Below, one piece after another: positions 13,148-41,476 of a DNA stretch of 41,597 nucleotides. Position 1 is the stretch's first letter; every line of letters starts with the position of its first letter. The stretch is from positions 1-41,597 of the forward strand of contig JACCWM010000011.1 of NCBI GenBank assembly GCA_013697635.1. The letters are read 5' to 3'. The notes beneath the pieces were generated by a model. It had not been told where the DNA came from, did not search any database, and saw only the letters and a list, made by a program, of their open reading frames with translations. The DNA is from Lujinxingiaceae bacterium. Its GTDB lineage: Bacteria > Myxococcota_A > Bradymonadia > Bradymonadales > Bradymonadaceae. Position numbers and translations under genes: made by a program.

Positions 13148-13159
13148 AATGCCTCTTTG

Positions 13160-13203
13160 AAAAAACGAGAGCCCGTCTTCCGTATTTGGGGGAAGACGGG
13201 CTC
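13160..13203 (-). terminator. Intrinsic terminator after the 947-residue lipoprotein gene
   Basis: A 13-bp stem (GAGCCCGTCTTCC with GGAAGACGGGCTC, loop 13182-13190) is followed on the minus strand by TCGTTTTTTC. The T-run ends about 12 nt before the start codon of the next lipoprotein gene (13147). Confidence 0.85.
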
Positions 13204-13262
13204 AGGTGTGCTTCACGAGCCTTGCAATGAGCAGCCGTAAAGCGGCTGCTCGGGCTCGAATA

Positions 13263-16106
13263 TCAGGCGCCGCAGCGGCCCCATCCGGGCAGGATCTGGT
13301 TGCTGTTGTCGTCCTCCCAGGCGCGGCAAACCTCACCGCCCAGGCAGCCCGCGAGGGTATCAAAGTTGCAAACGCGCACACAAACGCCCTCGCCATCGCC
13401 GCCGTCGACGCAGAAGGCGTTGTCGCCGCAAAGCTTGCCGACGTCGGCGCGCGCGCAGCTCTGGTTGGCCGGTCGGCTCGGTCCGCTCTCGACGCAGTGA
13501 CCAACACCACCGCTGAAGGTGGGACCAGGCATGACCGGCGAGCAGGCCATGTTGGCCGGGCAATCGGTGGTGCTGGGGGCTGGCTTGAATGCCTGGCACA
13601 TCGGACGGCAGGTCGCCGTCTCACCCTGACGAAGCTCGTTGAAGGGCTCGACGAGAAGACCGTTGAAGGTCGGCACGGTCTTTGCGCACATGGCGCCCGG
13701 TACGCAGTTTTGCACGGTCGGCTGGCCGCAGTTGGCACCGACCGCTACCTCGCCCGAGCCATTGCATACGGCCAGGCCTTCGGTTGCATAGCAGGCCTTT
13801 TGATCAGCCGGGCAGCTCGCATCGGTGTAGTTCGTTCCGGGCTCGCAGCCGATACGGCACTCTCCCAGGTTGAGGAAGCCGCGAATCGGCGCGCAAATCT
13901 CATCGTCCGTGCAGCTAAGCGCGGCGTTGACCTGGGCGTTGGGCTCACAGTACGAGCGGCATGTGCCGCTGCCTGCGCCGTTGGTGTCGCAGGACAGTCC
14001 GTCGAGGCACTCGTTGGTCTCCTTGCAGGGGCCGCCCACTTCGCTCTGGCCGGACGGGAAGCACCACTGGCGCTCCGGTGAGCCTGGATTACAGGCGTTG
14101 GCGCCGCCGCCGCTGCAGGCACCGGTGCCGTAGTGGCTGTTGTCGGTGCAGTTCTCAAAGCAGATGCCCAGGCCCTGAATCGGGGCTTGTTGTCCGCCGA
14201 GCAAATCGATGCAGTTGCCCGAGAGCACACGCGCCGAAGCAGCCACGGAATGCGCGACGAACTCCAAGCGCAGATCCTGGTCGTCTTCGCTGTTGGCCGT
14301 TCCGATCAGGTAGATCGTCGCCACGTCGCCCGTGGTGACCTTGACGTCTTCGAACAAGACGATCTCGTTGCCCAGGGTGCGCTCGGTCGCCGGGAAGACG
14401 TAGACGTCGTAGCCAAGCGGCTCCGTGATCTCGGGATCCTGGTCGGTTTCGACGGCAACGAAGCTCGAGGCCTGCCCAAAGCTCAGCCCGTTAGCGAAGC
14501 GGCGATGATTGGCGACCAGATCGAAGCTCTCGCCGGCGCGCACGATGATCACGTCCACGACATCGGCGTCGGCCACGCCGTGAACCAGGCGAAGCTCGGT
14601 GGTGTCGCCAACGGCTGTCGGCGCCTGGCGAGGCTCGGCCACGGTCAAGATCTGAATCTTGACGTCTTCTTCGGAGTTCGGATCGGCGACCACGACCAGG
14701 TTGAGCGCCTCGTTACCCACGAGGGTGATGTTGTCCTCGAAGACTTTGACGCCATCAAGGTGCACCGAGACCGTATGGGTTCCGATAGCAAGCGTGAGGA
14801 AGTCGCCATTGTTGGCGAGCTCACCAAAGGCCAAACCTTCGGCCAGGGGCGCGCCGTTGAGGTGGATGTCGGCCGCGCCAATGCCTTCGGCCAGGTGCGC
14901 CAGACGCACGAACGACTGGGGCAAGGCGCCCGGGCAGGTCGCATCGCGCAGCTCCTTGGTGGCCAGCGTCGGGTTACAAAGTGGCAGGCAGCGCGCGTGG
15001 CCCGTGGTCACACCAAAACACCATGTGCCGCTTGGGCATTGGGTGGTGTCGCTGCTGGCATCGCACTTGGCATAGGGCTCGGCGCTGTTGTCGGCCTTGA
15101 GCAGGCACATGCCGTCGGTGTTCGAGATCGGCAGACAGCTCTTGTCGTCGGCGCAGTTCTGCTCGTCGATGTTGTAGGGATTGCATCGATCGCCACAGAT
15201 GCCCGCGCCCTGAAACAAGTTGATGTCGTCGCCGATGCAGCCCTCGTCGCTCTTAGAGCAGGGGGTGTTCGCATTGCAGGGCTCGGCGCAAAAGGTCTTG
15301 AAGGTCGAGGTCTGGCTCAGATCGAGGATTGGGATGCGGCTGACGCAAACCAGGCCGCTCTTGCAAGGCTGAGCGCGCGCACACTCGTCGCCGAGTTGGC
15401 GGGTACCAGCAGGCACGCACAGGTTGGCGTAGTTTCGGTACGCGTCGGTCTCACGGCTGCAGGTCGAGCCGTTTGGAAACTTCGACGGATCGGCCTGAGC
15501 AATCTGGTCACACGTGGCCTGACCGTTCAACACACCCGCGCACTCCGAGGGACGGCAGGCCTTGCGGTCGATACAAATCGAGCCGGGCGTACAGGTATAG
15601 GAGACGGCGTTGCCGGCGCTCGAGCCGAGCACACAGGCTTCATAGCACTTGGGGCCGGCACCCATGTCGTGGCAGGCAAAACCGGGACGCTCGAGGCGAT
15701 TGAGGTCACAGTTCTGACCGACGGCCGTGCACTGGCGAGGAAGCTCGATGCAGGCGCCTTCCTGGCACTCGCTACCAATCGGACAGCTATTGGTGGCGTC
15801 ACACTGCTTGGCAACGCAGGCACTGCTGATGCAGACCCGCCCAGCCGCGCATTGGTCGTTGCCCGAGCAGCTCGTGCGCGTGACGCATTCAAAGTTGGAG
15901 GTGCACTGCTGGTGGCCCAGGCACTCGTCATCGGTGCGGCAATCCACGATCTCAAGCGCGCATTTGCCGTCAAGGCAGACGTTTCCTGCTTTGCAGTCTT
16001 GGTCGTTCGAGCAGCTAAGCTCGTCTTCCGGCCCACATGCTGACAAAAAGGCCAGACAAAGACTCAGAAAGCTAAATAACAGGAACCTGGGGAACGCGTG
16101 CGACAT
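13263..16106 (-). CDS. Large Cys-rich lipoprotein with two DUF4397-like units
   Basis: A 947-residue protein with lipoprotein signal FLSACG (lipid Cys 24). Residues 30-395 are Cys-rich short repeats (CKAGNVCLDGKC, CAAGRVCISSAC). Two DUF4397-like units follow: about 399-490 (FVRLAHLAEGIGAADIHLNG; LTLAIGTHTVSVHLDG) and about 495-640 (LRLVHGVADADVVDVIIVRA; EPLGYDVYVFPA). A second Cys-rich region runs to the C-terminus. DUF4397 units resemble beta-sandwich domains of cell-surface proteins; their ligands are unknown. ATG 16106 has a strong GGAGGAG site, and a promoter candidate lies at 16162-16190. A terminator follows the gene. Confidence 0.88.
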   Translation of the reverse strand: MSHAFPRFLLFSFLSLCLAFLSACGPEDELSCSNDQDCKAGNVCLDGKCALEIVDCRTDDECLGHQQCTSNFECVTRTSCSGNDQCAAGRVCISSACVAKQCDATNSCPIGSECQEGACIELPRQCTAVGQNCDLNRLERPGFACHDMGAGPKCYEACVLGSSAGNAVSYTCTPGSICIDRKACRPSECAGVLNGQATCDQIAQADPSKFPNGSTCSRETDAYRNYANLCVPAGTRQLGDECARAQPCKSGLVCVSRIPILDLSQTSTFKTFCAEPCNANTPCSKSDEGCIGDDINLFQGAGICGDRCNPYNIDEQNCADDKSCLPISNTDGMCLLKADNSAEPYAKCDASSDTTQCPSGTWCFGVTTGHARCLPLCNPTLATKELRDATCPGALPQSFVRLAHLAEGIGAADIHLNGAPLAEGLAFGELANNGDFLTLAIGTHTVSVHLDGVKVFEDNITLVGNEALNLVVVADPNSEEDVKIQILTVAEPRQAPTAVGDTTELRLVHGVADADVVDVIIVRAGESFDLVANHRRFANGLSFGQASSFVAVETDQDPEITEPLGYDVYVFPATERTLGNEIVLFEDVKVTTGDVATIYLIGTANSEDDQDLRLEFVAHSVAASARVLSGNCIDLLGGQQAPIQGLGICFENCTDNSHYGTGACSGGGANACNPGSPERQWCFPSGQSEVGGPCKETNECLDGLSCDTNGAGSGTCRSYCEPNAQVNAALSCTDDEICAPIRGFLNLGECRIGCEPGTNYTDASCPADQKACYATEGLAVCNGSGEVAVGANCGQPTVQNCVPGAMCAKTVPTFNGLLVEPFNELRQGETATCRPMCQAFKPAPSTTDCPANMACSPVMPGPTFSGGVGHCVESGPSRPANQSCARADVGKLCGDNAFCVDGGDGEGVCVRVCNFDTLAGCLGGEVCRAWEDDNSNQILPGWGRCGA

Positions 16107-23836: not shown

Positions 23837-23868
23837 TGGCCAGGCCGTCCAACAGCGAGGGGCGATGA
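23836..23868 (+). CDS. 10-residue second mini-ORF
   Basis: ATG 23836 encodes MARPSNSEGR and stops at TGA 23866-23868, which overlaps the lipoprotein start ATG 23865 as ATGA. Its codons for SEG and R also contain the GAGGGG ribosome site of the lipoprotein gene. Translational coupling is the simplest reading. Confidence 0.35.
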   Translation: MARPSNSEGR

Positions 23869-25868
23869 TCGCATGGACGCCAGGCTTGATTTTGGTGCTC
23901 GCGATGCTGACGAGCGTGACGGGCTGCGTTGACGGGCCGACGCCGCGCGACGTGTTTGGCTCCAATCCGGGGAGTGAACCGTCACCGGACGCCTCGACCA
24001 CGCCCACGCCCGACGATCCCAAGGATGTGCTGCCCGCGCTGCGACCGCTGTGCGTCGCCGATGCGCGCCGCTGCCCCTTTGAGAACAGCCCGATCTTTGA
24101 GCAGTGCACGGGCGACCAGGCCAATTACAAGCGCGGCCTCTGCCCTGAGGGCACGGTCTGCCACGAGGATGGCTGCTTTCCTTTCGCCTGCACGCCCCAT
24201 CGCGATGTGTGCCTGGGGCCGACCATGGCGGCGACCTGCGATGTCACCGGCCAGGGATACACCAACGCGCGCGCTTGCGATGCGGCCAGCGGCCTTTGTC
24301 GCGGAGGCTATTGCACCGACCCCTGCTCGAGCGCGGCCGCCTCGGGCTCCTACATCGGTTGTGAATACTACGCGCGTGAGTTGCCCAACCATAGCCAAAG
24401 AGCGACGGCCGGAATCTTTGCCGTAGTCCTGGCCAACCCCTCGCGCCAGCTCGACGCAATCGTCAGGCTCACCGACAGCACGGGGCAGCCTGCCGACTTC
24501 GTTCGCGAGCGCCGGCTGGTGCCGACGACGGCCTTGCCCGATGCCCAGCCGGCGACGGTGAAGTCACGCTTCTTGACCGCCGATGGGCCGCGCATCTTTC
24601 CCGACGACACCGATGCGATCGCCGTGCCCCCGGGGGCGGCGGCAGTCTTCTTGCTGGATCTGGCGGCGCTCGAGGATCAGAGCGCCTTCAAGGTCACGAG
24701 TAGCCGCCCCGTGGTGGCCTACCAGTTCAACCCCTACTGCTGCAATTTCACGGCCTCCAACGACGCGAGCTTGCTGCTGCCCGCGGCCACCTGGGGCACG
24801 CGCTACCGGGTGGTTAATTATCCGACCATGGCCACCCCCGATGAGGATCTAAGCTCCTATGTTCCCTACATCACGGTGATCGCCAAGCAAGACCAGACGA
24901 CGATTACCGTCGATTCACCCGTGCTGCTCCAAGAGGGCGTCGAAGCCGACGCGGCCCTGACCTTTCGCCAGGCGAGCTTCGTGCTCGATGCCGGACAGAC
25001 GCGCACTCTGGGGGCCCAGAGCCTGAAGGTGCATGCGGCCGACGGCTCCGGCATGGATCTCTCGGGCGCGGTGGTCACGGCCGATGCGCCGGTGGCCGTG
25101 ATGGTGGGTCACGTGTGCACCTTCGTACCTCAGGACAAGTGGGCCTGCGATCACCTCGAGGCGCAGATGCCGCCGGCGGCGACGCTGGGGCGAAACTACG
25201 TGCTCAGCCCGGCCCGAAGGCGCAACGCCGTCTCCGACATTCCTACCAACGAGGGCATCTACTGGCGGCTGGTGGCCGATGAGCGCTCGCAGCTGACCTT
25301 CGAGCCGCCGCTTGGGGAGCTGGCGCGCTTGCCTCACTCGACCGTGGCGACGAAGAACTGTCACGACCTTCTGGGCGACGATGGTCTGCTCGAGCTCGAG
25401 GCCGGCGAGGTCTGTGAGTTTGGCACCCGTTCGCCGGTCAGCCTGAGCAGCACCGGGCGGATCGCGGTGGCCGGCGTGCTCTCCGGCCATCAGTCGACCG
25501 GGCTCGCGGGCTTTGGCTCCAAGGCCGGCGATCCCTCGATGTTCATCTTGGCCCCGGTTGAACAGCTTCGCCGTGAGTATGCCTTCGTCGCGCCGCCGAC
25601 CTATGCCAAGACCTACGTCTCCGTGGCCATGAGCGCCGATGCACCGCTCTTGCACAACGGCAAGCCCGTCACGATCGCCCAGCGCCTGGAGCGGCGAAAG
25701 CTCACGCATGCAACGCAGTCCTGGGAGGTGTTTGCTGTCGCCCTGGAGCCGGGCGTGCACGCGATGGAGTCGAGCGAGCCGTTTGGCATCATTGTCTATT
25801 CCTACGACGACTACGTCAGCTACGCCTTCACCGGTGGGCTGAACCTCTTGCCCAAAGGCGCGCCCTGA
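23865..25868 (+). CDS. IgGFc-binding-type surface lipoprotein
   Basis: A 667-residue lipoprotein (signal ending SVTGC, Cys 21) with a Pro/Asp/Thr-rich linker, a Cys-rich part (about 60-160) and a large beta-rich region (about 170-660). That region has the style of the IgGFc-binding N-terminal family: PVVAYQFNPYCC, SNDASLLLPAATWGTRYRVV, a DLSGAVVTADAPVAVMVGHV repeat and HLEAQMPPAATLGRNYVL. The family is named after a mammalian mucus protein; in bacteria it sits in predicted surface proteins of unknown ligand. ATG 23865 overlaps the preceding mini-ORF, with GAGGGG about 3 nt upstream. Its stop overlaps the next gene's start (TGATG), so the pair is a coupled operon. Confidence 0.85.
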   Translation: MIAWTPGLILVLAMLTSVTGCVDGPTPRDVFGSNPGSEPSPDASTTPTPDDPKDVLPALRPLCVADARRCPFENSPIFEQCTGDQANYKRGLCPEGTVCHEDGCFPFACTPHRDVCLGPTMAATCDVTGQGYTNARACDAASGLCRGGYCTDPCSSAAASGSYIGCEYYARELPNHSQRATAGIFAVVLANPSRQLDAIVRLTDSTGQPADFVRERRLVPTTALPDAQPATVKSRFLTADGPRIFPDDTDAIAVPPGAAAVFLLDLAALEDQSAFKVTSSRPVVAYQFNPYCCNFTASNDASLLLPAATWGTRYRVVNYPTMATPDEDLSSYVPYITVIAKQDQTTITVDSPVLLQEGVEADAALTFRQASFVLDAGQTRTLGAQSLKVHAADGSGMDLSGAVVTADAPVAVMVGHVCTFVPQDKWACDHLEAQMPPAATLGRNYVLSPARRRNAVSDIPTNEGIYWRLVADERSQLTFEPPLGELARLPHSTVATKNCHDLLGDDGLLELEAGEVCEFGTRSPVSLSSTGRIAVAGVLSGHQSTGLAGFGSKAGDPSMFILAPVEQLRREYAFVAPPTYAKTYVSVAMSADAPLLHNGKPVTIAQRLERRKLTHATQSWEVFAVALEPGVHAMESSEPFGIIVYSYDDYVSYAFTGGLNLLPKGAP

Positions 25869-27523
25869 TGGCAACTCTTCGCCAGGCGCTGGTTGTTGCG
25901 CTGATCCTGAGCCTCTGGAGCTTTGAGGCCGCAGCGCAGTCCGACGATGCGGTGGTCGTCGTCTCCTCGGGAGGCGTGCGCCACGTTCAACTCTTCGATC
26001 TCGAGGCCTACGACGGCACGATCGAGGCTTTCGCGGCCGGCCGGCGCCGGATTTTGCCCGACAGCGCTGCAGCGTCGACCTTCACCGACATCAAGGTTTT
26101 GCCCGACGGCAGCTTCTTGCTGGCCGACGCCAGCGGGCGCGGCTTCATGGTCAGTGACGCCGACGGCGCGCTGCGCTACGAGCTTCGCCCGCCCAACGCC
26201 ATTCCCTCGATCGCCAGCGCCTCGGTGGTCTCCTATCTGGGCCCGGGCGCGCCCCATCAGGTGTTGATGGGCGATAACGCGACCTCGCGCGCGAGCGTCT
26301 ACGACATCTTTGCCCAGGGCTACAGCTGGAGCTACGACTTTGGCGCGAGCGGCTCGCGCGCCGTGATCACGCAGGCGATCGCCATGCCTGGCGAGCGCAT
26401 CGCGGCTGCGGTCAACTGGCCGGCCCAGGGCCTCTCAAGCGTTGATGTCTTCAAACTGGGCCCTGGCGAGGGGCCGGCCCATCGCCGCTTTGCCAACATC
26501 GATCATTTCGGAGGCCCGCGCGATCTGGTGATCGTCGAGGGGCTGAACACGGTGCGCGATCTGATGGCGCGCGCCGACGGCAGCCTGCTCGTGACCACGC
26601 GCTTTAGCCTGCTGTCGCTCTCGCCAGCTGGCGAGGTGCTCTGGCAGCTCAACGTGGCCGACGATCTGGCGCTCAACGGCGAGCTCGCCACGGCGCGCTG
26701 GCTGCCTTCGGGGCGCATCGCGCTGGCGAGCTTCGAGCCGGGCCACTGGGTGCGCCCGCACACCAATCATCGCATTCACTGGATCGACCCGAGCAGCGAG
26801 GGCGCGCCGAGCGTGGTTGCGACAAGCGAGGTGCTCGACGCCGCGCCTGTGCGCCTCGATGCCCTGCGTGGCCACGGCGGCACAGGCACCTTTGGTTTTG
26901 AGACCGACGGCGGCGAGCCGGCATTTGGCGATGCCTCGGCGCTGGTGCTCTCAGCCGAGTTGATCGTCAATGCGATGAGTTTTCGAAGCGGCGATCGCCT
27001 CAGCGCAAACGCGACGCTGCTCAACCCGGGCGCCCAGCCGATCGCCCTCGAGCGCGTCGGCGTCGTCGGTCTGCCTGGCCGCTGTGGCAGCCCCCACGGC
27101 ACAGCGCGCACCTTCTTCGAGTATCGCGGGATTCGACTGGAGAGCGCGGCTGCCTTCGAGTTCGACGGTGCCGTGATCGTGGACCCGAGTTTTGTGCCCG
27201 GTCCCTGGTGTGTGTTCGTCTCCACGCGCGATCGTTTCCTCGTCGAGCGTGCCGTTGGAGATCCGATCGAGATCGAGATCGAGGCCGAGCGCATTCGCCC
27301 GCCCGATGTGCGCGATGTCGAGCTGCTCGAGGACGTTGGCGAGGGCGATGTGGGCTTTGAGCTGAGCGAGCCGCCAACGCCGGCTGAGAGCGAGCAAGGT
27401 TGCGCCTGTCGCCTGGCGCCTGGCAGTGGCACGTTGGGCGGCGCAGGTTGGCTGGCAAGCCTTGCGATCGTGCTCGCCCTGGCGCGCGTTCGAAAGAGAC
27501 GTCAGCGGCCCCTGCGCCGATGA
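25868..27523 (+). CDS. Secreted propeller-like protein with MYXO-CTERM-like C-terminal tail
   Basis: A 551-residue exported protein. The signal peptide ends EAAAQ (about 24). Residues 50-320 have repeated strand motifs (VLPDGSFLLADASG; MARADGSLLVTTRFSLLSLS; EVLWQLNVADD) like a beta-propeller of the arylsulfotransferase/PQQ type. A beta-sandwich-like part follows (FRSGDRLSANATLLNPG). The C-terminus has GCACRL, a hydrophobic helix (GAGWLASLAIVLALA) and an Arg-rich end: the layout of MYXO-CTERM sorting tails processed by myxosortase. ATG overlaps the stop of the lipoprotein gene. The last 22 nt overlap the convergent gene's 3' end. Confidence 0.8.
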   Translation: MATLRQALVVALILSLWSFEAAAQSDDAVVVVSSGGVRHVQLFDLEAYDGTIEAFAAGRRRILPDSAAASTFTDIKVLPDGSFLLADASGRGFMVSDADGALRYELRPPNAIPSIASASVVSYLGPGAPHQVLMGDNATSRASVYDIFAQGYSWSYDFGASGSRAVITQAIAMPGERIAAAVNWPAQGLSSVDVFKLGPGEGPAHRRFANIDHFGGPRDLVIVEGLNTVRDLMARADGSLLVTTRFSLLSLSPAGEVLWQLNVADDLALNGELATARWLPSGRIALASFEPGHWVRPHTNHRIHWIDPSSEGAPSVVATSEVLDAAPVRLDALRGHGGTGTFGFETDGGEPAFGDASALVLSAELIVNAMSFRSGDRLSANATLLNPGAQPIALERVGVVGLPGRCGSPHGTARTFFEYRGIRLESAAAFEFDGAVIVDPSFVPGPWCVFVSTRDRFLVERAVGDPIEIEIEAERIRPPDVRDVELLEDVGEGDVGFELSEPPTPAESEQGCACRLAPGSGTLGGAGWLASLAIVLALARVRKRRQRPLRR

Positions 27524-29597: not shown

Positions 29598-30380
29598 TCA
29601 GGCGTTGATCTCGACGCGCATCAGCTCGCTGCCAAAGCAGACATAATCGCCATGCTCCATGGGGTGCTCGTTTTGAAGGCGCAAGAAGGTGCCATTCTTG
29701 CTGTCCATATCGCTGAGCACGACCTGATCGTTCTCGAAACTGACGCGGGCGTGCTGGCGCGAGATGTGGCGATCGTCGGCGAAGAGCACGTCGGCGCCCT
29801 CGCGGCCGATCACCAGGTCGTTGTTCGGCGAGCAATAGGCCGCGCCAGGCTTGCCGCCGGCTAGCACGTGCACAATGCGAAATTTGTAGTCGCGCGGCGG
29901 GCTGATGTACATCAAGGTCTGCTCGCGCATCGGATACTCGCGCTCGAGATCGAGGCGTTGCAAGCGAAAGAGCTGCTCGCCGACCATGAAGTGATCGCCG
30001 TCTTTGAGCACGTGGGAGCTGCGAATGCGCACGAAGGTGCCGTTGGCGCTGGCCTCGTCGCGCAGATAGAGCTTGTTGTCGCGATAGATGAAGCTGGCGT
30101 GCTTGGCGCTCAAATACTCGTCTTCGGGAAACAAGATCGCGCCCACGCTGCGCCCGGCGACATGCTCGGTGGCGTTGAGGTGGTAGCTCAAGCCCTCGAG
30201 GCCCTCGCCCTTGATCAAGATGAGCTTGGCGCGCCCGGGCGCCTGCATGGCGCCGAAGAACAGGGTCTCGTTTTCGGCACCGAGGCCGTTCTCGTTGTGG
30301 CTTGCACCACAGCGTCCACAATAATGGTGGCCATCGGGCACGATGGCGTTGCAATTTCGACAGTTACGCGCGCTGGACAT
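29598..30380 (-). CDS. Zinc-ribbon protein with two FHA domains
   Basis: A 260-residue cytosolic protein. An N-terminal zinc ribbon (Cys7, Cys10, Cys21, Cys24) is followed by two FHA domains. FHA1 (about 50-142) has AGRSVGAILFPEDEYLSAKH and SANGTF. FHA2 (165-258) has IGREGADVLFADDRHISRQH and DSKNGTF. Both keep the Gly-Arg, Ser, His and Asn-Gly positions that bind phosphothreonine peptides, so both are likely functional. Such proteins act with Ser/Thr kinases, none of which is in this window. The 70-nt gap upstream links it to the TPR/HEAT gene on the same strand. Confidence 0.92.
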   Translation of the reverse strand: MSSARNCRNCNAIVPDGHHYCGRCGASHNENGLGAENETLFFGAMQAPGRAKLILIKGEGLEGLSYHLNATEHVAGRSVGAILFPEDEYLSAKHASFIYRDNKLYLRDEASANGTFVRIRSSHVLKDGDHFMVGEQLFRLQRLDLEREYPMREQTLMYISPPRDYKFRIVHVLAGGKPGAAYCSPNNDLVIGREGADVLFADDRHISRQHARVSFENDQVVLSDMDSKNGTFLRLQNEHPMEHGDYVCFGSELMRVEINA

Positions 30381-30451: not shown

Positions 30452-33400
30452 TCACAGCTTACCTGAGCGTCGCAGCTTCATTCCCCACTGCTCGTCGTAG
30501 CCGCTGCGCGCGGCGCGTGATTCGTCGGTGTCGATGCGATCGAGCGCGTCGAGGATCGCCGCCTGCACGGGCTGGGTCGATGTGGCGAGCATGGACTGCA
30601 GGGCGCCCACGGCCACGGTGGCGCGGCTGCGCCCCAGCGCCTCGATTGCGGCAAGCCGCACGCTGACATAGCGATCCTCGGTGAGCTTGACGATCTTTTC
30701 GACCGCCTCGGCGTGGCCCTGATCGGCCTTAATGCTGCGTCCAAGGCTTGTGGCCGCTGCCGAGCGCACGCTGTGGTGGCTGTCCTCGAGGGCGGCCACC
30801 TGCAAGGTCGTCGCGGCGGCCACGGTGCCAAAGCCCGCGAGGGCCAAGACGGCGGCGCGGCGCACCTGGGGTGAGGCGTGTCCCACATGTGCCGAAACCA
30901 GGGCGAGGTCGTCGCGCTGGCCGATCGTGCCAAGCAGGCGAAGCAGCGCCGGGTCGACGTCGGCGCCGTCGGCGCGCGCGCGACTCTTGAGCGCGGGGTG
31001 AAGCCCGGCGACGATCGCGGCCAAGATCTCGGCGCGCCGCTCGAGGCTCTCGGCATCGCTCGCTGACGCCGATGTTATTATACCCAGAGCAAGGCTGCTG
31101 CTGGCCTCGTCAAAAAGATCGGCGCTGACTAGCCTTGCGCCCGGGCCGCCGGCGGCGAGCCTTCGAGCGGCGATGCGCACAATCGCATCCTTGTGGCTGG
31201 CCAAAAACGCGGTGGAATCGCCGGCCACGATTGAGCTCGACGAGCGCACCAGGTACTCGAGCAGATTCTCGACGCGGATCGCCCCGCGGCGCATCTCGAT
31301 GTGGCGCACCTCCTGGAGCAGGCTGGACGTGGCAAGACGGGCTTCTTTGGCCTGATCGTGGCGCGCAGCAGCCCACGCCAGGCCGCTGCCCGCGCGGTGG
31401 CGAAGGGCGTCCGGTGCGCTCCAATAGGCTTCGAACAGCGCCTCGGTGGCGGCGCGCTCGCCGATTTGCACCAGGCCCAAGACGGCCATGGCCGCGACCG
31501 CCTCGGGGGCCTCGTGCATGACCTGAGCGAGCGCGTCGGTGGCCTTGGGGTCGGCCGCCTGGCCAAGCGCCCAGACCGTGGCCAGCGCCAGGGTGTTGGA
31601 GTAGCCCGAGCTTTGAGCGCGTGACAAGGTCAACAAGAGCACGTCGACGGCCTCGCGCGAGCCGATGCGCCCCAGGCTGATCGCGGCCAGCGACTGTTGA
31701 TTGATGTTTTCACCGTCGGCCAGCACGCGGGCCAGGCGATTGACCGCACCCTTGCCCCCGGTATGGCCAAGCGCCCAGGTCGCGACATCGCGAATGCCCG
31801 GCTCGGCGTCGTCGAGGGCCCGCACGAGCGAATCGGTGGCGCGCGCGTCGCCCACATGGGCCGCAGCGATCGCCGCCGGCACACGCAGCGGCTCGGCGGG
31901 GTCTTCGATCAAGCGAGCGATCGAGGCGGCCGCGTTGCCAAGGCCCAGATCGCCCAGCATCTGCATGGCCATCACGCGCTGGCTGACGTCGTTGTCGAGC
32001 AATGCGTCGAGCAGCACGGGCATCGCGCGCGCGCCTATCTGCTCGAGCTTGCTCGTGGCCTTCTCTTGCCTGGCCCCACTGGCATAGCGGGCCTCGGCGA
32101 TGAGCGGCGTGGTCATGCGACCGTAAAGCTCGACGAGCAGCTTGCGGTAGACCGGACGCGGCGGATTGCGAAAGAGCATCGGATGAAGCTCGGCCTCCAT
32201 CTCCTCGAGGCGTCCGCGCGCATGGGCCAGATCCATGGCCTTTCGCGCCACGACGACGACCAGCGAGTCGTCGGGCGATTGGCGCGCCACGGTGCGGTAA
32301 AGCTGCTCGGCCTCGCGCAGATCGCCCAGCTGGCGAACGATCTCGGCCAGGCTGATGTAGACCGGGTAGGCGCGCGGATCGAGCTCGATCGCGGTGCGGT
32401 ACTGGCGAGCGGCGTCCTCGAGCTGGCGCATGTTGTGATACACCTCGCCCAGGCGGGCGTGGGCCGCGGCGTCGTCGGGGTTCTCGTCGAGCGCGCGGCT
32501 GGCGTATTTGACCGCCTGATCGTCGGCCTGCATGCGAACGCTCAGATCGGCCATGCGATGGTAGAAATCGCGCGCCAGATCGGGCATCGCTGCCGCGAGC
32601 TCCTCGAGCACGCCGAGCGCCTTCTCGAACTCTCCACGCTGGGTATAGATCTTTTCCAGCGCGAGCAGCGCCTCGAGCGCCGGCTTGCCGGCGGCGCGCT
32701 CGAGCTCGAGGATGCGCCGATAGATCACCTCGGCTGGCTCGACCTCCTGGAGCTTGATGTGCGACTCGGCCAAAAAGTAGCCGGCGCGCACCTCGGGCGG
32801 GCGCGCCTCGAACTGGGCGGCGAACTCGCGCATCTTGGCCCGCAGACGGTTCTGGCGCCGGTAGATCTCGATGATCCGCGAGCGGCCCTCGGCGGCCATG
32901 TGGGGCTGGGTGGCACCGTCGAGCAGCGTCGTCCAGGCAACGATCGCCTTGTCCCAGAGCCGCGCGCGCTCGTAGGCCTGGGCCAGGCCGCGCTGGATGC
33001 GCACGTCGTTGGGGGCAAGCTCGACGGCCTTCTCGAAGTGGCCGATGCCAAGCTCCACCATGCCGCGATCGACGAGCACCTCGCCCAGGCGCGCGTGGCC
33101 CTCGACGGTGCCTAGCTGGGAGCCGACGAGCTTTTTCCAGGTGTCGACGGCCTTTTGGCGCTCGCCGTTTTGGAAATAGAACTCGCCCAGGCTCAGGATG
33201 AAGCTGTCGTTTTTGGGCTCCTGGCGCACCAGGCGCTCGTAGATCGCCAGCGCTTTGTCGCTCATGTCGTAGCGCGTGTACTGGTCGGCGAGCATGACCT
33301 GGACGTGGCTGTCACGGGCAAAGCGGCGGCCGACCTCCTCGAGCACGCGAAGCGCGCGGGTGCGCTCGCCCATGCGAAAGAAGTGGCGCACCAGATCGAA

Positions 33401-34543
33401 GTGGTACTGATAGCGCGTGGGCGCGATGCGAATCAGGCCCTCGTAGGCTGTGACGATCTCTTTGTCGTCGCCGCGGCGCTCCAGGATGCGGATGATCTTG
33501 AGGCGCGGGTCCACCGAGCGTGCGTTTCGGCCCGCGGCGCGCTGGTAGAGGCGCAGCGCGTCGTCGATGCGCCCGACCTCCTGGTACATGTCGGCCAAGA
33601 GCATCATCTCGTCGAAGTCGCCCGCGCTCCAGCGCGCGGCGACCGTCTCGATGTATTCGTTGAGCCGGTCCTGGCGCCGGTAGATGTTGACCACGCGCCC
33701 CTGCACCTCGCGGCTGAGCCAGCTGCCGTCTCGCACCAGGCGCGTGACCTGGCGGTAGGTGTCGAGCGCCTTGTCGTCCTGGCCCATCTGCTCGTAGACG
33801 TCGGCCATGTCGCGAAGCGTCGTGGCGCGCGCGGCCTGGTTGCCGCCGACGAGCTTCAAGACGGCCTCGTACTGGGCGACGGCCTTCTCGTAGCGCTTGT
33901 ACTGCACGAGCGCCTGGGCGTACTCCATGCGCAAAAACTCGTTGCGCGGCTCGAGGGCGACGAGGCGATCGAAGTACTTCTCGGCGCGCTCATAATCGCG
34001 TGAGGCAAAGGAGAGATCGGCCAGCTGGCGCAAGATCTCTTGCTGGCTCTCGCGGTTGCGCTCGAGCTCGAGGGCTTTTTCAAAGTCGTTGGTCGCGTCG
34101 GCGCGCTTGCCGATGAGCATGAGCACCTTGCCCCGGCTGAGCCAGGCAAGCGGCATCGTCGGCGCAAGCTCGACGGCCTTCTCGTAGTGAAGCAGCGCCT
34201 CCTCGTTGTCGCCGCGCACACGCAAAAAGTGGCCGAGCACCAGGCGCAGGTTGGCGCGATCGGGGCGGTTGGTGACCTTCGTGCGGTACTCGTCGATCAG
34301 GCGATCGAGGCCGCGCGCGCGGCCTACATACTCGAGCACCCGGTTGAAGGCCATGCCTTCGGTCGGGTTGCTCTCGAGCATGCTCTTGTAGCGGTCTACG
34401 ATCTCCTGGCGGCGTTGATCGCCGCCGTCGACGCTCCAATCCTGGGCATGAACCGGGGAGGGTGCGCTGGCAACACCGGCCAAGAGCAGGCTTGCGGCGA
34501 GCAAAGCGCGCAGCGTGCGCGCGCAAAAGGTACATCGAATCAT
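30452..34543 (-). CDS. Large exported TPR plus HEAT-repeat protein
   Basis: A 1363-residue protein with a signal peptide (LRALLAASLLLAG, cleavage near VHAQ, about 34). Residues about 40-800 are a long array of TPR units (EEALLHYEKAVELAPTMPLA; YEKAVAQYEAVLKLVGG; EDAARQYRTAIELDPRAYPV). Residues about 840-1350 are HEAT/PBS-lyase-type helical repeats (ARATDSLVRALDDAEPGIRD; GRIGSREAVDVLLLTL; APDALRHRAGSGLA; SVRLAAIEALGRSRATVAVG). It is expected in the periplasm or outer envelope as a scaffold, with no enzymatic part. ATG 34543 has only a weak ribosome site. A terminator-like hairpin with a T-run lies about 25 nt upstream. Confidence 0.9.
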   Translation of the reverse strand: MIRCTFCARTLRALLAASLLLAGVASAPSPVHAQDWSVDGGDQRRQEIVDRYKSMLESNPTEGMAFNRVLEYVGRARGLDRLIDEYRTKVTNRPDRANLRLVLGHFLRVRGDNEEALLHYEKAVELAPTMPLAWLSRGKVLMLIGKRADATNDFEKALELERNRESQQEILRQLADLSFASRDYERAEKYFDRLVALEPRNEFLRMEYAQALVQYKRYEKAVAQYEAVLKLVGGNQAARATTLRDMADVYEQMGQDDKALDTYRQVTRLVRDGSWLSREVQGRVVNIYRRQDRLNEYIETVAARWSAGDFDEMMLLADMYQEVGRIDDALRLYQRAAGRNARSVDPRLKIIRILERRGDDKEIVTAYEGLIRIAPTRYQYHFDLVRHFFRMGERTRALRVLEEVGRRFARDSHVQVMLADQYTRYDMSDKALAIYERLVRQEPKNDSFILSLGEFYFQNGERQKAVDTWKKLVGSQLGTVEGHARLGEVLVDRGMVELGIGHFEKAVELAPNDVRIQRGLAQAYERARLWDKAIVAWTTLLDGATQPHMAAEGRSRIIEIYRRQNRLRAKMREFAAQFEARPPEVRAGYFLAESHIKLQEVEPAEVIYRRILELERAAGKPALEALLALEKIYTQRGEFEKALGVLEELAAAMPDLARDFYHRMADLSVRMQADDQAVKYASRALDENPDDAAAHARLGEVYHNMRQLEDAARQYRTAIELDPRAYPVYISLAEIVRQLGDLREAEQLYRTVARQSPDDSLVVVVARKAMDLAHARGRLEEMEAELHPMLFRNPPRPVYRKLLVELYGRMTTPLIAEARYASGARQEKATSKLEQIGARAMPVLLDALLDNDVSQRVMAMQMLGDLGLGNAAASIARLIEDPAEPLRVPAAIAAAHVGDARATDSLVRALDDAEPGIRDVATWALGHTGGKGAVNRLARVLADGENINQQSLAAISLGRIGSREAVDVLLLTLSRAQSSGYSNTLALATVWALGQAADPKATDALAQVMHEAPEAVAAMAVLGLVQIGERAATEALFEAYWSAPDALRHRAGSGLAWAAARHDQAKEARLATSSLLQEVRHIEMRRGAIRVENLLEYLVRSSSSIVAGDSTAFLASHKDAIVRIAARRLAAGGPGARLVSADLFDEASSSLALGIITSASASDAESLERRAEILAAIVAGLHPALKSRARADGADVDPALLRLLGTIGQRDDLALVSAHVGHASPQVRRAAVLALAGFGTVAAATTLQVAALEDSHHSVRSAAATSLGRSIKADQGHAEAVEKIVKLTEDRYVSVRLAAIEALGRSRATVAVGALQSMLATSTQPVQAAILDALDRIDTDESRAARSGYDEQWGMKLRRSGKL

Positions 34544-34620: not shown

Positions 34621-35175
34621 TCATTCCGAAAGCGTGGCCTCAACCCACTCGACCTTGAAGCGCCCCTGCTTGAAGAAGTCGCGCATCGCCTCGCTGATGG
34701 CCGTCAGCTCGGAGGGCCGCCAACGCGTCTGGCAGATCACCTCGCGGTGTCCGCCCTCGAGCCCGACCTCGATCGTGCTCTGCTTTGGTGACGCCCGCAA
34801 GGTCACCACGACCGTGGCGATCTCGCGAAGCTCCACCGATTCGTCGTGAGTCACCCCGTAGAGCGTGCGCGTGTGGTAGGCCAAGCGGCGCTCCTCGGCG
34901 TCAAACACCCAGCGCTCGTGGCGCACGTAGCGAAGCACGGCCAGCAGCATACTCACAAAGGCCGCAAGCGCCACGATCGCGAGCAGGACCAGGCCGCGAA
35001 AAGGCTCCTGTTCGGCGTAGCGTCCGACATAGTCGGGCAAAAAGAATAGGATCAGCCCGAGCAGCGCCGCCGGCATCACCAGCGCCCAGCGCTCGAGCGC
35101 CCAGACCAGGCGGCCCCTGGCGCTTGGGCCCACTTCCAGGCGGCCCTTGTCGACCAATGTGTAAAAGAGTTTCAC
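34621..35175 (-). CDS. Two-helix membrane protein with PH-like soluble part
   Basis: A 184-residue protein with two membrane helices (about 31-50 and 61-82) and a cytosolic part. The stretch RHERWVFDAEERRLAYHTRT with VELREIATVVVTL and TIEVGLEGGHREVICQTRW looks like a short beta-rich bacterial PH-type fold; this is judged by eye. The start is GTG 35175 with a weak upstream site. It lies upstream of the TPR/HEAT gene and is divergent from the paired gene set starting at 35326. I recognise no named family. Confidence 0.65.
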   Translation of the reverse strand: MKLFYTLVDKGRLEVGPSARGRLVWALERWALVMPAALLGLILFFLPDYVGRYAEQEPFRGLVLLAIVALAAFVSMLLAVLRYVRHERWVFDAEERRLAYHTRTLYGVTHDESVELREIATVVVTLRASPKQSTIEVGLEGGHREVICQTRWRPSELTAISEAMRDFFKQGRFKVEWVEATLSE

Positions 35176-35325
35176 GTAACTTGTCTGCTCGCGACGGTTT
35201 AGCCGTGCACTTCCCTCTTAATAAAACCACCAAACCCATGTATGACTAGCGGGTCGTTGGGACTGCGAAGCTAACACAGTGCCCTCGCCTTGAATAGCGG
35301 CCCGCCTGCACCCTGGCTTGAGTTG

Positions 35326-37293
35326 ATGTTCGCTCCATCGCGTCGAAAACAGCGTCGTGTCCTGCCCTACCGTGTGGCCTTCTGGCTGACGATGGCCCTG
35401 ATTGCGACTGTGATGTACCTGCAGCGCTCGCCGATCGGCCTCGATGGTGATCCCCAGAGCAGCGAGGGACTCGAGATCACCCGCGAGGCCAGCGCCGATG
35501 TGCTCGTGGTGCTCGACTACAAGGCGATCCGCGCCAGCGGCGAGAGCTTTGAGACGCGCGATTGGAGCGCGGTCTGGATCAACATAATCGAGCAGGAGGT
35601 CGGGCCAGTGACGATCGCCACGCCCCAGTCGCTGAGCCAGCAGAGCCTGAGCGCGGCGCGCGTGGTGATCTTGACCGCAAGCGTGGCCAACCAGATCAAC
35701 GACGCCTTGTTGCCCACGCTTCGCCAGTGGGTGCTCGACGGCAACCTGCTCGTCGTCGACCAGCCCGAGGGCCGGCTGCGCGAGGCCTTTTCGGCCAACG
35801 GGCGCGCCGGCTCCAGGCGCGGCCAGCAGATCACCTTTGCGCGCGATCTGCCCAATCCCTTTCATGCCCAACTCCAGGAGATGCCGCTGTCGACGAGCTA
35901 TGTCGGCTCGACGGCTGCCCGCAACGACGCGACCACCTTGCTCGCGATCGACGGCGCGCCGGCGATCTATGCCGCCACGATCGGCACCGGCACGGTGGTC
36001 ACGATCGACTTCAACTTAGGCGAGCAGCTCGTCGCCTTGCAGCAGGGCAAGCCCACGGCGCGCTTTGCCGTCAAGGCCGCTGCTCGCCCCGAGTCGAGCA
36101 CGCCGAGCACCGAAGATCTCGTGCTCGACGAGCGTTTGCGCGGGGCCAGCGTGCCCTATGCCGACTTGTTGGAGCGCTTCATCGTCTACGGCGTCTTGAT
36201 GCGCTACGCGCCGCTGCCCGCTTTTTGGCAGTTTCCCAACGGCGCCAAGGGCGCGGTGATCCTCGTGCACGAGGACTCCCAGCTTGGCGACGGCGGCGGC
36301 TGGATGCTCGAGCACGAGACCACCTTTGGCGCCGTGTCGACGCTCTTGACCACCGTCGACGCCGGCTTGACCAGCGAGGGCGCCGCCCAGATCAACAAGC
36401 GCGGCGGCGAGGTCGGCCTCTTGTGGCGGCTGGCCTCGAGTCCGGCCGAGGTGCGCGAGCCTGTGGGCATGGGCCGCTTCAAGCCGGTGGCGCGCCCGAT
36501 CGATCTGGCCACCCAGCTCAAGGCCCTCAAGGCCACCTTGCCCGTCGACTTCGTTCGCAGCACGCGCACGCTCGATGGCTGGTGGAGCGAGAGCTGGTCG
36601 GGGCCATTTGAAACCATGGCGGCCAACGGCATTCGCATCGATACGAGCTATGGTTTGCGCTCGACCTCGGGTTTTGCCTTTGGCACGGGCCTGCCGTTTT
36701 TGGCCTTCGACAGCCGCGGCATGCCGCTTGGCGTTCGCGAGATGCCCGTTATCGTGCCCGCCCAGGCGATCGCCGGCCCCTCGCTCGAGGAGCTCTTGCG
36801 CATCAGCGCCGAGGGCCACCACCAGGCGCTGACGGTCTCAATGGACCCGGCACTCTTTGCCGATTTTCCCGACGCCGAGCGCTTTGAAAAATGGCTAGCG
36901 ATGTTTCAAAGCGTCCAAGACGCCGAGCACGTGATGACCAGCGCGCTGCGCTTTGACACCTATCAGCGCAATCGGCGCGCCGGCAGCATTCGAAGCCGTC
37001 TCGTCGAGCGTGCTCCGCTACCCGAGAACGCACGCAGCTCGGCCACCGCACCCAACCATCAGGGAACGGTGCTGCGCATCAGCGCCGAGGCCAAGGCGCG
37101 CAACATGTTCATCGTCGTCCCCCAGAATCTTGGCGAGCGCCGCTTCTTGATCGCGCGCCAGGGCGCAAAGCGCGTGCAAGGCGAGCTGCTCTCGACGGCG
37201 GCCGTCACCGAGCCGGCCTCGATCGTGGGCTTCGAGCTTCGCCGCATAGCCCTCGAGCAGGGATTCAATACCATCGACATCTATTACCACTGA
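35326..37293 (+). CDS. Membrane-anchored protein, polysaccharide-deacetylase-like in part, first of a tandem pair
   Basis: A 655-residue protein with one N-terminal membrane anchor (VAFWLTMALIATVMYL, about 16-31). About 200 residues of Rossmann-like alternation follow (ADVLVVLDYKAI; LSAARVVILTASV; NLLVVDQPEGRLREAF), reminiscent of glutamine-amidotransferase-like domains. A TIM-barrel-like part has GAVILVHEDSQ and NGIRIDTSYGLRS, which resemble NodB-type polysaccharide deacetylases. The catalytic Asp-Asp and His-x3-His pairs are not clear, so activity is doubtful. Start ATG 35326 gives MFAPSRRKQRR before the anchor; a TTG at 35290 would add 12 residues. The next gene is 24 nt downstream. Confidence 0.75.
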   Translation: MFAPSRRKQRRVLPYRVAFWLTMALIATVMYLQRSPIGLDGDPQSSEGLEITREASADVLVVLDYKAIRASGESFETRDWSAVWINIIEQEVGPVTIATPQSLSQQSLSAARVVILTASVANQINDALLPTLRQWVLDGNLLVVDQPEGRLREAFSANGRAGSRRGQQITFARDLPNPFHAQLQEMPLSTSYVGSTAARNDATTLLAIDGAPAIYAATIGTGTVVTIDFNLGEQLVALQQGKPTARFAVKAAARPESSTPSTEDLVLDERLRGASVPYADLLERFIVYGVLMRYAPLPAFWQFPNGAKGAVILVHEDSQLGDGGGWMLEHETTFGAVSTLLTTVDAGLTSEGAAQINKRGGEVGLLWRLASSPAEVREPVGMGRFKPVARPIDLATQLKALKATLPVDFVRSTRTLDGWWSESWSGPFETMAANGIRIDTSYGLRSTSGFAFGTGLPFLAFDSRGMPLGVREMPVIVPAQAIAGPSLEELLRISAEGHHQALTVSMDPALFADFPDAERFEKWLAMFQSVQDAEHVMTSALRFDTYQRNRRAGSIRSRLVERAPLPENARSSATAPNHQGTVLRISAEAKARNMFIVVPQNLGERRFLIARQGAKRVQGELLSTAAVTEPASIVGFELRRIALEQGFNTIDIYYH

Positions 37294-37317
37294 ATTTGAG
37301 TTCGAGGAGTCTGGCAG

Positions 37318-39264
37318 ATGCGACGCGAACAACCGAGCCTGGGAGGCCTCAAATGGGATGTCGGCCTTGTGGGCCTGGTGATCCTGGCCACGGTCGGCGT
37401 CGCCTCACTGCGTGAGCCACGGGTGCAACCGGCCGTTGAGGCGACGATCGCCGGCAGCCGGCCACCGGATCGCGCCGAGGGCGATGTCTTGTTGCTGCTG
37501 CCCAACACGCCGGCGGCCGAGGCGACCAACTTCGCCGAGCTCGACTGCAGCTATGGCTGGTTCAACAGCCTCTGGCAGGAATACGGCAGCTTCGCCACGG
37601 CGCTCTCGCGCCAGTTGAGCCCGGAGATCTTGGCCGGTCGCAGCGTCGTAATCGTGCCCGCGCGCGTGGCCGAGACGATGCCCGAGTCCGGCATGCGCGC
37701 GCTCTCGAGCTTTGCCAAGGCCGGCGGCCAGGTGGTCATCGAGATGCCCGGCGAAGGTTGGCAGGGCCTGACCCAGGTGGCGACCAGCGGCAAGACCCTG
37801 CACGCCACGCGCATCACCTCGGTCGAGGGCATGAGCGTGCACGGCCCGATGCGCGAGCACCTGGTCGACGTGCCCCTGACCGGCCGGCTCCTGCCCACGG
37901 CTCGCCTCGACGCCTATCCGGTCGGCCCGATGCTGCTCGAGGTCGAGGAGCAACCCGGCCTCGTGGTTCATCCCCACGGCCGGGGCTTTGTCTATACGCT
38001 GCTGTTTGACTACGGCTGCTCGCTGACGGCGATGCACCAGGGAAAACCCACGCGCGAGATGGCCTTTGGCCTGCCCGACGCCCCAGATTTGATCACGACC
38101 GCCGAGCGCGTCGCCCACGAGCGCATGCTCACCTCGCACGTGCCCTACGCCGATTTGCTCAAGCGCGCCCTGTTTCAGCGTTTCTCGCTTGCGCGCCCCG
38201 TGCCCAGGCTCTGGCCCTTTCCCACCACCCACGCCGGCGCGATGATCGTCGGCCACGCCACCCCCGAGATGACCCGCGCGGCCCTCGGCTACGCCGACTG
38301 GGCACGAAAGCAGGGCGGCATCTCGACGATCTTCATCGCCCCCGACCGCCTCACCCTCACCGAGGCCACCGTCGCTCGCCAGACCGGCGCCGAGATCGGC
38401 CTGTTGTGGGTGCGCGGCGCCGAGCGCGAGCAAGCGATCGAGACGATCGGCATCGGCGCGCTTCGCCCGGTGGCCCGCGAGCTCACCTTGAGCCAGCAAC
38501 TGGGCCAACTCCAGGGCAACCTCGGCCACGGCCACACCGTGCGCCTGGCCCGCACCGAGGAGTCCTTGTGGCACAACGACTGGGCCACCACCTTCAAGCA
38601 GCTCGCCGCCGCCTCGATTCGCATCGACCACAGCTTTGGCCCCAAGAAGCCCGAGCATTTTGGCTATCTCTTTGGCACCGGCATGCCCTACTACCCGATC
38701 GACGAGCGCGGCCTGCCCCTGGCCCTGCTCGAGCTGCCCTACGTGCTCAACGGCGCCAGCATCACGCCCCAGCGCCTCAAGCGCATGCTCGTCAACAGCG
38801 AGAGCAACTTCCACCAGGCGATCGCCATCAACCTGCCCGCCGACGCCATGCGCCGCGAGCCCGCCCCCGGCATTCTGCTCGGCTTTCGCGACGCCTTCGC
38901 CATGGCCAAAGCCCACAACCACTGGGTCACCACGGCCGGCGACTTCGTCGACTTCCTCTCCGCGCGCCGCCAATCCGTGCTCACCAGCCAGTGGTCCGCC
39001 CCCGAGCGCCGCCTCACGATCAGCGCCAACGTCATGGGCGCCCGCCTGCCCACCATGGAAGACGGCGCCGTACCCGGCATCGCCTTCCCCCGCACCTTCG
39101 ACGGCGAGGACATCATCCGCGTCGTCGTCGACGGCAAGGACGTCGCCCTTCGCCACCTCGTCTCAACCGGCTCCAACGTCGAGCGCATCCTCAAGGTCGC
39201 CCCCGGCCGCCACACCGTCCAAGTCTTCTACGCCCAACCTGCCGCTGAAGCGCTGAATCGCTGA
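37318..39264 (+). CDS. Membrane-anchored paralog of the preceding gene product
   Basis: A 648-residue protein with the same layout: one N-terminal anchor (VGLVGLVILATVGVASL), a Rossmann-like half (GDVLLLLPNTPAAEAT; AKAGGQVVIEMPGEG) and a barrel-like half. Paralogy is clear: ASIRIDHSFGPKK aligns with NGIRIDTSYGLRS, and GTGMPYYPIDERGLPL with GTGLPFLAFDSRGMPL. The strand equivalent to AVILVHEDSQ reads AMIVGHATPEM, so the acidic metal-ligand position is lost. It is thus likely inactive, or binds rather than cuts glycan. It overlaps nothing and ends 4 nt from the convergent hydrolase gene. The two proteins may form a heterodimer. Confidence 0.75.
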   Translation: MRREQPSLGGLKWDVGLVGLVILATVGVASLREPRVQPAVEATIAGSRPPDRAEGDVLLLLPNTPAAEATNFAELDCSYGWFNSLWQEYGSFATALSRQLSPEILAGRSVVIVPARVAETMPESGMRALSSFAKAGGQVVIEMPGEGWQGLTQVATSGKTLHATRITSVEGMSVHGPMREHLVDVPLTGRLLPTARLDAYPVGPMLLEVEEQPGLVVHPHGRGFVYTLLFDYGCSLTAMHQGKPTREMAFGLPDAPDLITTAERVAHERMLTSHVPYADLLKRALFQRFSLARPVPRLWPFPTTHAGAMIVGHATPEMTRAALGYADWARKQGGISTIFIAPDRLTLTEATVARQTGAEIGLLWVRGAEREQAIETIGIGALRPVARELTLSQQLGQLQGNLGHGHTVRLARTEESLWHNDWATTFKQLAAASIRIDHSFGPKKPEHFGYLFGTGMPYYPIDERGLPLALLELPYVLNGASITPQRLKRMLVNSESNFHQAIAINLPADAMRREPAPGILLGFRDAFAMAKAHNHWVTTAGDFVDFLSARRQSVLTSQWSAPERRLTISANVMGARLPTMEDGAVPGIAFPRTFDGEDIIRVVVDGKDVALRHLVSTGSNVERILKVAPGRHTVQVFYAQPAAEALNR

Positions 39265-41259: not shown

Positions 41260-41300
41260 CGCCAACCCCAACAACGGCGGTCTCGACCGCCACCGCAATT

Positions 41301-41434
41301 GAGAACGCGACCGAGAACCGAGAACGTGATCGAGAACCGAGAACGTGATCGAGAACGTGATCGAGAACGTGATCGAGAACGTGATCGAGAACGTGATCGA
41401 GAACGTGATCGAGAACGTGATCGAGAACGTTCTC
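41301..41434. repeat. 12-bp tandem repeat, unit GAGAACGTGATC
   Basis: Seven perfect, directly adjacent copies run from 41339 to 41422. A further perfect copy lies at 41320-41331, separated by a 7-nt partial unit, and diverged units flank the array (41301-41312 and GAGAACGTTCTC at 41423-41434). Each unit carries one GATC site. The unit length is a multiple of three, so all frames stay open (RERD, IENV and their complements), and apparent reading frames through it are not evidence of coding. Confidence 0.95.
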
Positions 41435-41476
41435 GAGAATGGCCCTACAAACCGCTGGAGCCATGGTCGCAGTCCA

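Follow-up and report, generated by a model that had tools for sequence, protein, structure and literature searches.

A conserved tandem pair of PelA-like deacetylase relatives forming a probably non-catalytic envelope system

Described relatives and architecture of the pair

PelA, the CE21 enzyme that deacetylates and hydrolyses the Pel polysaccharide, consists of a hydrolase domain, a mixed alpha/beta domain with ThuA-like neighbours, a deacetylase domain and a beta-rich domain, and its first motif reads H-x-D-x-D (PMC12022489). A NodB-like barrel is also found in the CE4 and CE18 deacetylases, represented by an insect chitin deacetylase (5zns), Agd3 and the proteins of PF01522. In some proteins of the NodB fold the residues of the metal site have been lost, as in Ba0150 (4M1B), EcCDA (2VYO) and 3CL6, the last being an enzyme that works without a metal (PMC10967932). 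GATase-like domains are represented by DUF4350 and GH42M. Bradymonadales are contact-dependent predators, and the account of their genomes makes no mention of polysaccharides (PMC7460792).

The two genes described here, A and B, lie on a stretch of 41,597 bases (the window) out of a genome of 6.2 Mb (Table 1). Their products of 655 and 648 residues are real tandem paralogs, with 30% identity over 527 residues (E=2e-54), and the local alignment of NGIRIDTSYG with ASIRIDHSFG, on which the original prediction of paralogy drew, is present in the pair. B follows A on the same strand after 24 bases, and a genome-wide search with A as query returned A and B only. Hydropathy analysis revealed one hydrophobic segment in each protein, N-terminal in both. 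AlphaFold models were obtained for A (pLDDT 94.1, pTM 0.93; 69 relatives aligned) and B (pLDDT 92.7, pTM 0.90; 36 B sequences), and in both of them the predicted order is a membrane anchor, a GATase/GH42M-like Rossmann domain, a NodB-like barrel and a C-terminal beta domain, in agreement with the anchor and the Rossmann-like and barrel-like halves that had been proposed.

Table 1. Genes, domains and residues of the locus (window coordinates)
Feature	Position	Strand	Basis or remark
260-aa protein, zinc ribbon and two FHA domains	29598..30380	-	Same module as TPR/HEAT
1363-aa TPR and HEAT repeat protein	30452..34543	-	N-terminal hydrophobic segment (probable signal peptide)
184-aa protein, two hydrophobic segments, divergent from A	34621..35175	-	Hydropathy; PH-like in the original prediction
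Gene A, 655 aa	35326..37293	+	ORF, AlphaFold, Foldseek, orthologs across class
A N-terminal hydrophobic anchor, aa 12-30	35359..35415	+	Hydropathy; model helix 5-34
A GATase/GH42M-like Rossmann domain, about aa 55-250	35488..36075	+	AlphaFold, Foldseek, profile searches
A NodB-like barrel, about aa 301-545	36226..36960	+	AlphaFold, Foldseek, profile bridge to PF01522 / DUF7033 proteins
A His315-Glu316-Asp317 (HED)	36268..36276	+	E316 occupies Asp position of intact relatives
A L366	36421..36423	+	Replaces His invariant in intact relatives
A L416	36571..36573	+	Replaces His invariant in intact relatives
A D507	36844..36846	+	Replaces His invariant in intact relatives
A C-terminal beta-rich domain, about aa 546-655	36961..37290	+	AlphaFold model
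Gene B, 648 aa, paralog of A	37318..39264	+	ORF, AlphaFold, Foldseek
B N-terminal hydrophobic anchor, aa 13-31	37354..37410	+	AlphaFold model, hydropathy
B NodB-like barrel, about aa 299-545	38212..38952	+	AlphaFold, Foldseek

Comparison of the models with the PDB using Foldseek showed that one part of A and B resembles the GATase-like domains of GH42 beta-galactosidases and related proteins, while another part resembles chitin deacetylases and CE4 enzymes, 5zns being matched by both proteins. The best PDB match of B was PelA of Pseudomonas thermotolerans (9cgy, E=1.4e-8, prob 1.00). Since whole-protein TM-scores normalised by query were at most 0.35, the claim of a common fold holds per domain. 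Pfam and NCBIfam scans of A and B gave no model above cut-off, including those for deacetylases. The family profile matched PDB sequences, among them 7bob and 5vym, through the GATase-like half only; it also reached a protein with PF01522 above cut-off (L086) and another in which DUF7033 is combined with a barrel bearing deacetylase-like motifs (L087), and it was via these intermediate proteins that the link to NodB was obtained at sequence level. A NodB-like barrel was looked for and found in both models, and the relation to deacetylases, originally drawn by eye, holds for the predicted structures of A and B.

The last three domains of PelA are matched in order by A and B, whose first barrel motif also resembles that of PelA in having a conserved His. 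PelA, however, possesses an N-terminal glycoside hydrolase domain that A and B lack, since these start with the anchor and the Rossmann domain. Unlike PelA, they are membrane-anchored, occur as a pair and, in the lineage of the window, have no Asp/His metal site; no pel-like genes were seen among the neighbours examined. With the CE4 and CE18 deacetylases they have the NodB-like barrel in common, and the profile link to the PF01522 protein, but they differ by the absence of active-site residues and by the extra GATase-like domain. The loss of metal-site residues within a NodB fold is what they share with Ba0150, EcCDA and 3CL6; these have been described as single proteins, whereas A and B are two ancient paralogs in one operon with a joint loss.

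The N-terminal half of the A/B family resembles the GATase-like domains of DUF4350 and GH42M. DUF4350 was matched by 12 of the 69 family members (best E=1.9e-8), but not by A and B of the window in the Pfam scan. Because A has no cysteine at all, its GATase-like domain has no nucleophile, and the catalytic Cys of class I glutamine amidotransferases is missing from it; in B, Cys 77 and 234 are the only ones, for which a nucleophile role would be hypothetical. Between the Rossmann domain and the barrel, both A (aa 240-243) and B (aa 241-244) carry an invariant Q-G-x-P stretch that might represent a family signature; its Q-G is invariant also in intact relatives and in the outgroup.

Occurrence of the pair and fate of the barrel residues

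The family is carried by 40 of the 57 genomes of the class, and in 36 of these 40 A stands directly before B on one strand, with a gap of -4 to +24 bases in most genomes. The exceptions are genus g2, where A and B of its two genomes lie on different contigs and another gene follows A, and the genomes G048 and G039, in which the contig ends or A is missing. The pair is absent from families f3 and f7, G032 of f3 having distant relatives only, and in G201, a genome from elsewhere in the phylum, A and B are unlinked. The phylogenetic tree, obtained by a rapid LG+G4 search, has long outgroup branches and leaves the branching order of f2, f4, f5/f6 and f1 unsettled. It consists of one A clade and one B clade with the same families inside each; because these two clades are clean, the duplication is older than the class. 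A scan of named genomes with the single query P0001 gave zero matches; with close orthologs as queries it gave 12 loci, including Lujinxingia vulgaris, and the nearest named relatives are Bradymonadales.

Four barrel positions (316, 366, 416 and 507 of A) are occupied by D, H, H and H in outgroup proteins and in intact relatives. All four are present in five outgroup proteins, the sixth agrees at all three alignable positions, and no variation at these residues is seen when outgroup and intact members are aligned. The window has E, L, L and D in A and A314, L363, E414 and P507 in B. In the register of the alignment the catalytic Asp of CE4/CE21 motif 1 is therefore missing from A (E316) and from B (A314), and so are, at the other three positions, the His residues of the metal site and the catalytic acid. 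The sole residue of the barrel site that both keep is H315 of A, equivalent to H313 of B, which is near-invariant in both families. An apparently intact GATase-like plus NodB-like unit, with D, H, H and H all present, is also contained in the products of two exceptionally long ORFs (1557 and 2975 aa; L084:5518-10167 and L085:1148-10075).

It had been proposed that A is a working deacetylase by virtue of its His-Glu-Asp and B its inactive regulatory partner. The triplet is indeed present at residues 315-317, and H315, D317 and W326 are invariant among the 16 family members of A compared, while the acid is not kept in B. D317 sits one residue off the Asp of the intact relatives in our alignment, but in the H-x-D-x-D register of PelA (PMC12022489) it would match the catalytic Asp. 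Under either register, however, the three His of A are lost, and those positions would offer no metal-binding His even if D317 served as base. The triplet as a whole is typical only of A's own family; the position of E316 is taken elsewhere by P, G, T, D, R or other residues and varies, to P, G, T and D, even within the family of the window. Its His is moreover shared by B. The prediction of lost catalytic positions was hence right in that both proteins are degenerate, but not in confining the loss to the second.

The comparison between genomes points in the same direction. Among the 37 genomes in which both genes could be scored, both copies were degenerate in 33 and both intact in four, and opposite states were found in none. 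All four residues are kept by both copies in three of the four f2 genomes and in G201, whereas both copies retain 0 or 1 of the four in the fourth f2 genome and in every genome of f1, f4, f5 and f6. With A lacking D/H/H/H in the window just as B does, and with A and B in the same state in all genomes scored, the division into an active and an inactive partner was rejected, and we consider it very improbable. On a tree built without the motif columns the smallest number of changes is two losses for each of the two genes. The losses are likely more numerous than this minimum because f1 and f2, unlike f4, f5 and f6, are placed in a common order, a count that rests on taxonomy labels and vertical descent. 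As the independent loss events are few, the concordance of A and B is suggestive rather than proven.

Conservation of the pocket was analyzed separately. For the family of the window, conservation of the loops lining the pocket did not exceed that of the barrel (A p=0.13, B p=0.44), although an earlier, looser definition of the pocket that included the FGTGxP stretch had looked more conserved; such unremarkable conservation would be in line with a loss of catalysis. Constraint has preserved the fold but not the metal centre. In A of f5, by contrast, conservation of these loops exceeds that of the barrel (p=0.001), and therefore some pockets still do something. A and/or B might thus be enzymes that work without a metal, the NodB pocket being put to new use by H315, D317 and D439 in A and by H313, E414 and D437 in B. 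H315/H313 and D439/D437 are near-invariant, E414 is invariant in B of the window's family where intact relatives carry His, and 3CL6 is a precedent for a NodB-fold enzyme of this kind. Against this, the conserved residues differ from family to family, some may be structural (the RxDxSY strand), and the pocket loops of the window's own family do not stand out. A reshaped pocket in A and B is possible, but we regard metal-independent catalysis as unlikely. Judged from the residues, A and B of the window are likely inactive as deacetylases; the loss of metal ligands does not by itself prove inactivity, since a NodB-fold enzyme without metal exists (PMC10967932).

Proposed role

The ancestor of the pair was probably a PelA/CE21-like deacetylase of envelope polysaccharides with a Rossmann/GATase-like domain, a NodB-like barrel and a beta domain, which gave rise to an ancient tandem pair. 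A and B, each with its N-terminal membrane anchor, would be co-produced from one operon and, according to the predicted topology, hang from the inner membrane on its periplasmic side, where they most likely form a heteromeric complex. In the lineage of the window both barrels lack a metal-dependent deacetylase centre, and because both have lost it a non-enzymatic binding role is the most likely one: the complex would bind or hold an envelope glycan or another periplasmic ligand without removing acetyl groups. The pairs of f2 and G201 may still deacetylate. For this reading as a whole, a glycan-binding and non-deacetylating A-B heteromer derived from a PelA-like enzyme, we put the chances at about even. 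That the pair has been retained in much of a bacterial class points to a joint role in the envelope, probably a non-enzymatic one, and A and B can be regarded as PelA-like deacetylase relatives that have become a paired and probably non-catalytic envelope system. More tentatively, and with the balance somewhat against it, they could represent a two-subunit receptor or scaffold of PelA-like pseudo-deacetylases, in which, on repeated occasions and in both subunits alike, an enzyme pair has become a non-catalytic, glycan-binding machine of the periplasm.

NodB-fold pseudoenzymes are described singly, whereas in this case the state of two ancient paralogs, intact or degenerate, is the same within a given genome and the operon is retained. 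The intact pairs of three f2 genomes and G201, together with the degenerate pairs of f1, f4, f5, f6 and one f2 genome, constitute a natural series that allows one to study which functions other than deacetylation a paired deacetylase has.

Neighbouring genes

Two further genes had been assigned to the same gene set, namely that of a PH-like protein with two hydrophobic segments, divergent from A, and that of an exported TPR/HEAT protein. Both are present with the features described, although Pfam gave nothing above cut-off for the 184-residue PH-like protein; the segment initially delimited (34621-39264) covers this gene, A and B, while the TPR/HEAT gene lies outside it. The PH-like gene occurs in 18 of the 21 genomes of the window's family (f1), usually beside A. 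In most of f1 the PH-like, TPR/HEAT and FHA genes adjoin A-B with their order kept, so that the expected neighbourhood does exist, and in one f4 genome FHA and TPR/HEAT adjoin A-B as well. On this ground A-B and the PH, TPR/HEAT and FHA proteins might form a single envelope complex. The linkage is, however, not found wherever A-B occur. PH, TPR/HEAT and FHA genes lie together on contigs other than those of A-B in f6 (G031:C286) and f2 (G023:C783, G025:C208), and in G007 TPR/HEAT and FHA are about 0.2 Mb away from A-B, with the PH-like gene still beside A. FHA relatives were found in f3, a family without A-B, and the search did not detect TPR/HEAT in f5, where A-B persist; this absence is weak evidence, since searches of this kind do not distinguish TPR/HEAT orthologs well from other repeat proteins and several f1 genomes with a TPR/HEAT neighbour fell below the cut-off of the ortholog search. 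The three genes constitute a separate module, conserved independently of A-B, which is found apart from the pair in f2, f6 and partly in genus g8. One gene set including TPR/HEAT was consequently rejected, and a single complex appears quite unlikely. Relatives of the zinc-ribbon/double-FHA protein are present in 56 of the 58 genomes searched. No glycan export system was seen beside A-B in the loci read.

It is likewise rather improbable that Ser/Thr kinase and FHA signalling regulates the pair or that the pair acts as a sensor for it, and we treat this link only as a weak lead. A Ser/Thr kinase gene lies immediately upstream of A at seven loci of f5 and adjoins A in divergent orientation in G201, in three f2 loci a kinase gene lies just behind B and a gene for a FadL-type outer-membrane protein, and FHA genes are near A in f1 and f4. 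But the genomes contain 41 to over 130 kinase matches each, so that about one locus in ten would be expected to have a kinase no more than three genes away, and the association was noticed after the fact. Examples of such kinase neighbours are L045:10382-12361, L081:9552-11834, L046:3348-5498 and L100:5791-7581.

Elsewhere in the window, two adjacent proteins of exported type (667 and 551 aa) are encoded at 23865-27523, and relatives of the second lie near A-B in several f1 genomes. Two long ORFs of 945 and 947 aa on the minus strand (10310-16106) group as paralogs. Near the end of the window, at about 41300-41450 on the minus strand, an ORF that reads (ITFS)n suggests a 12-base tandem repeat.
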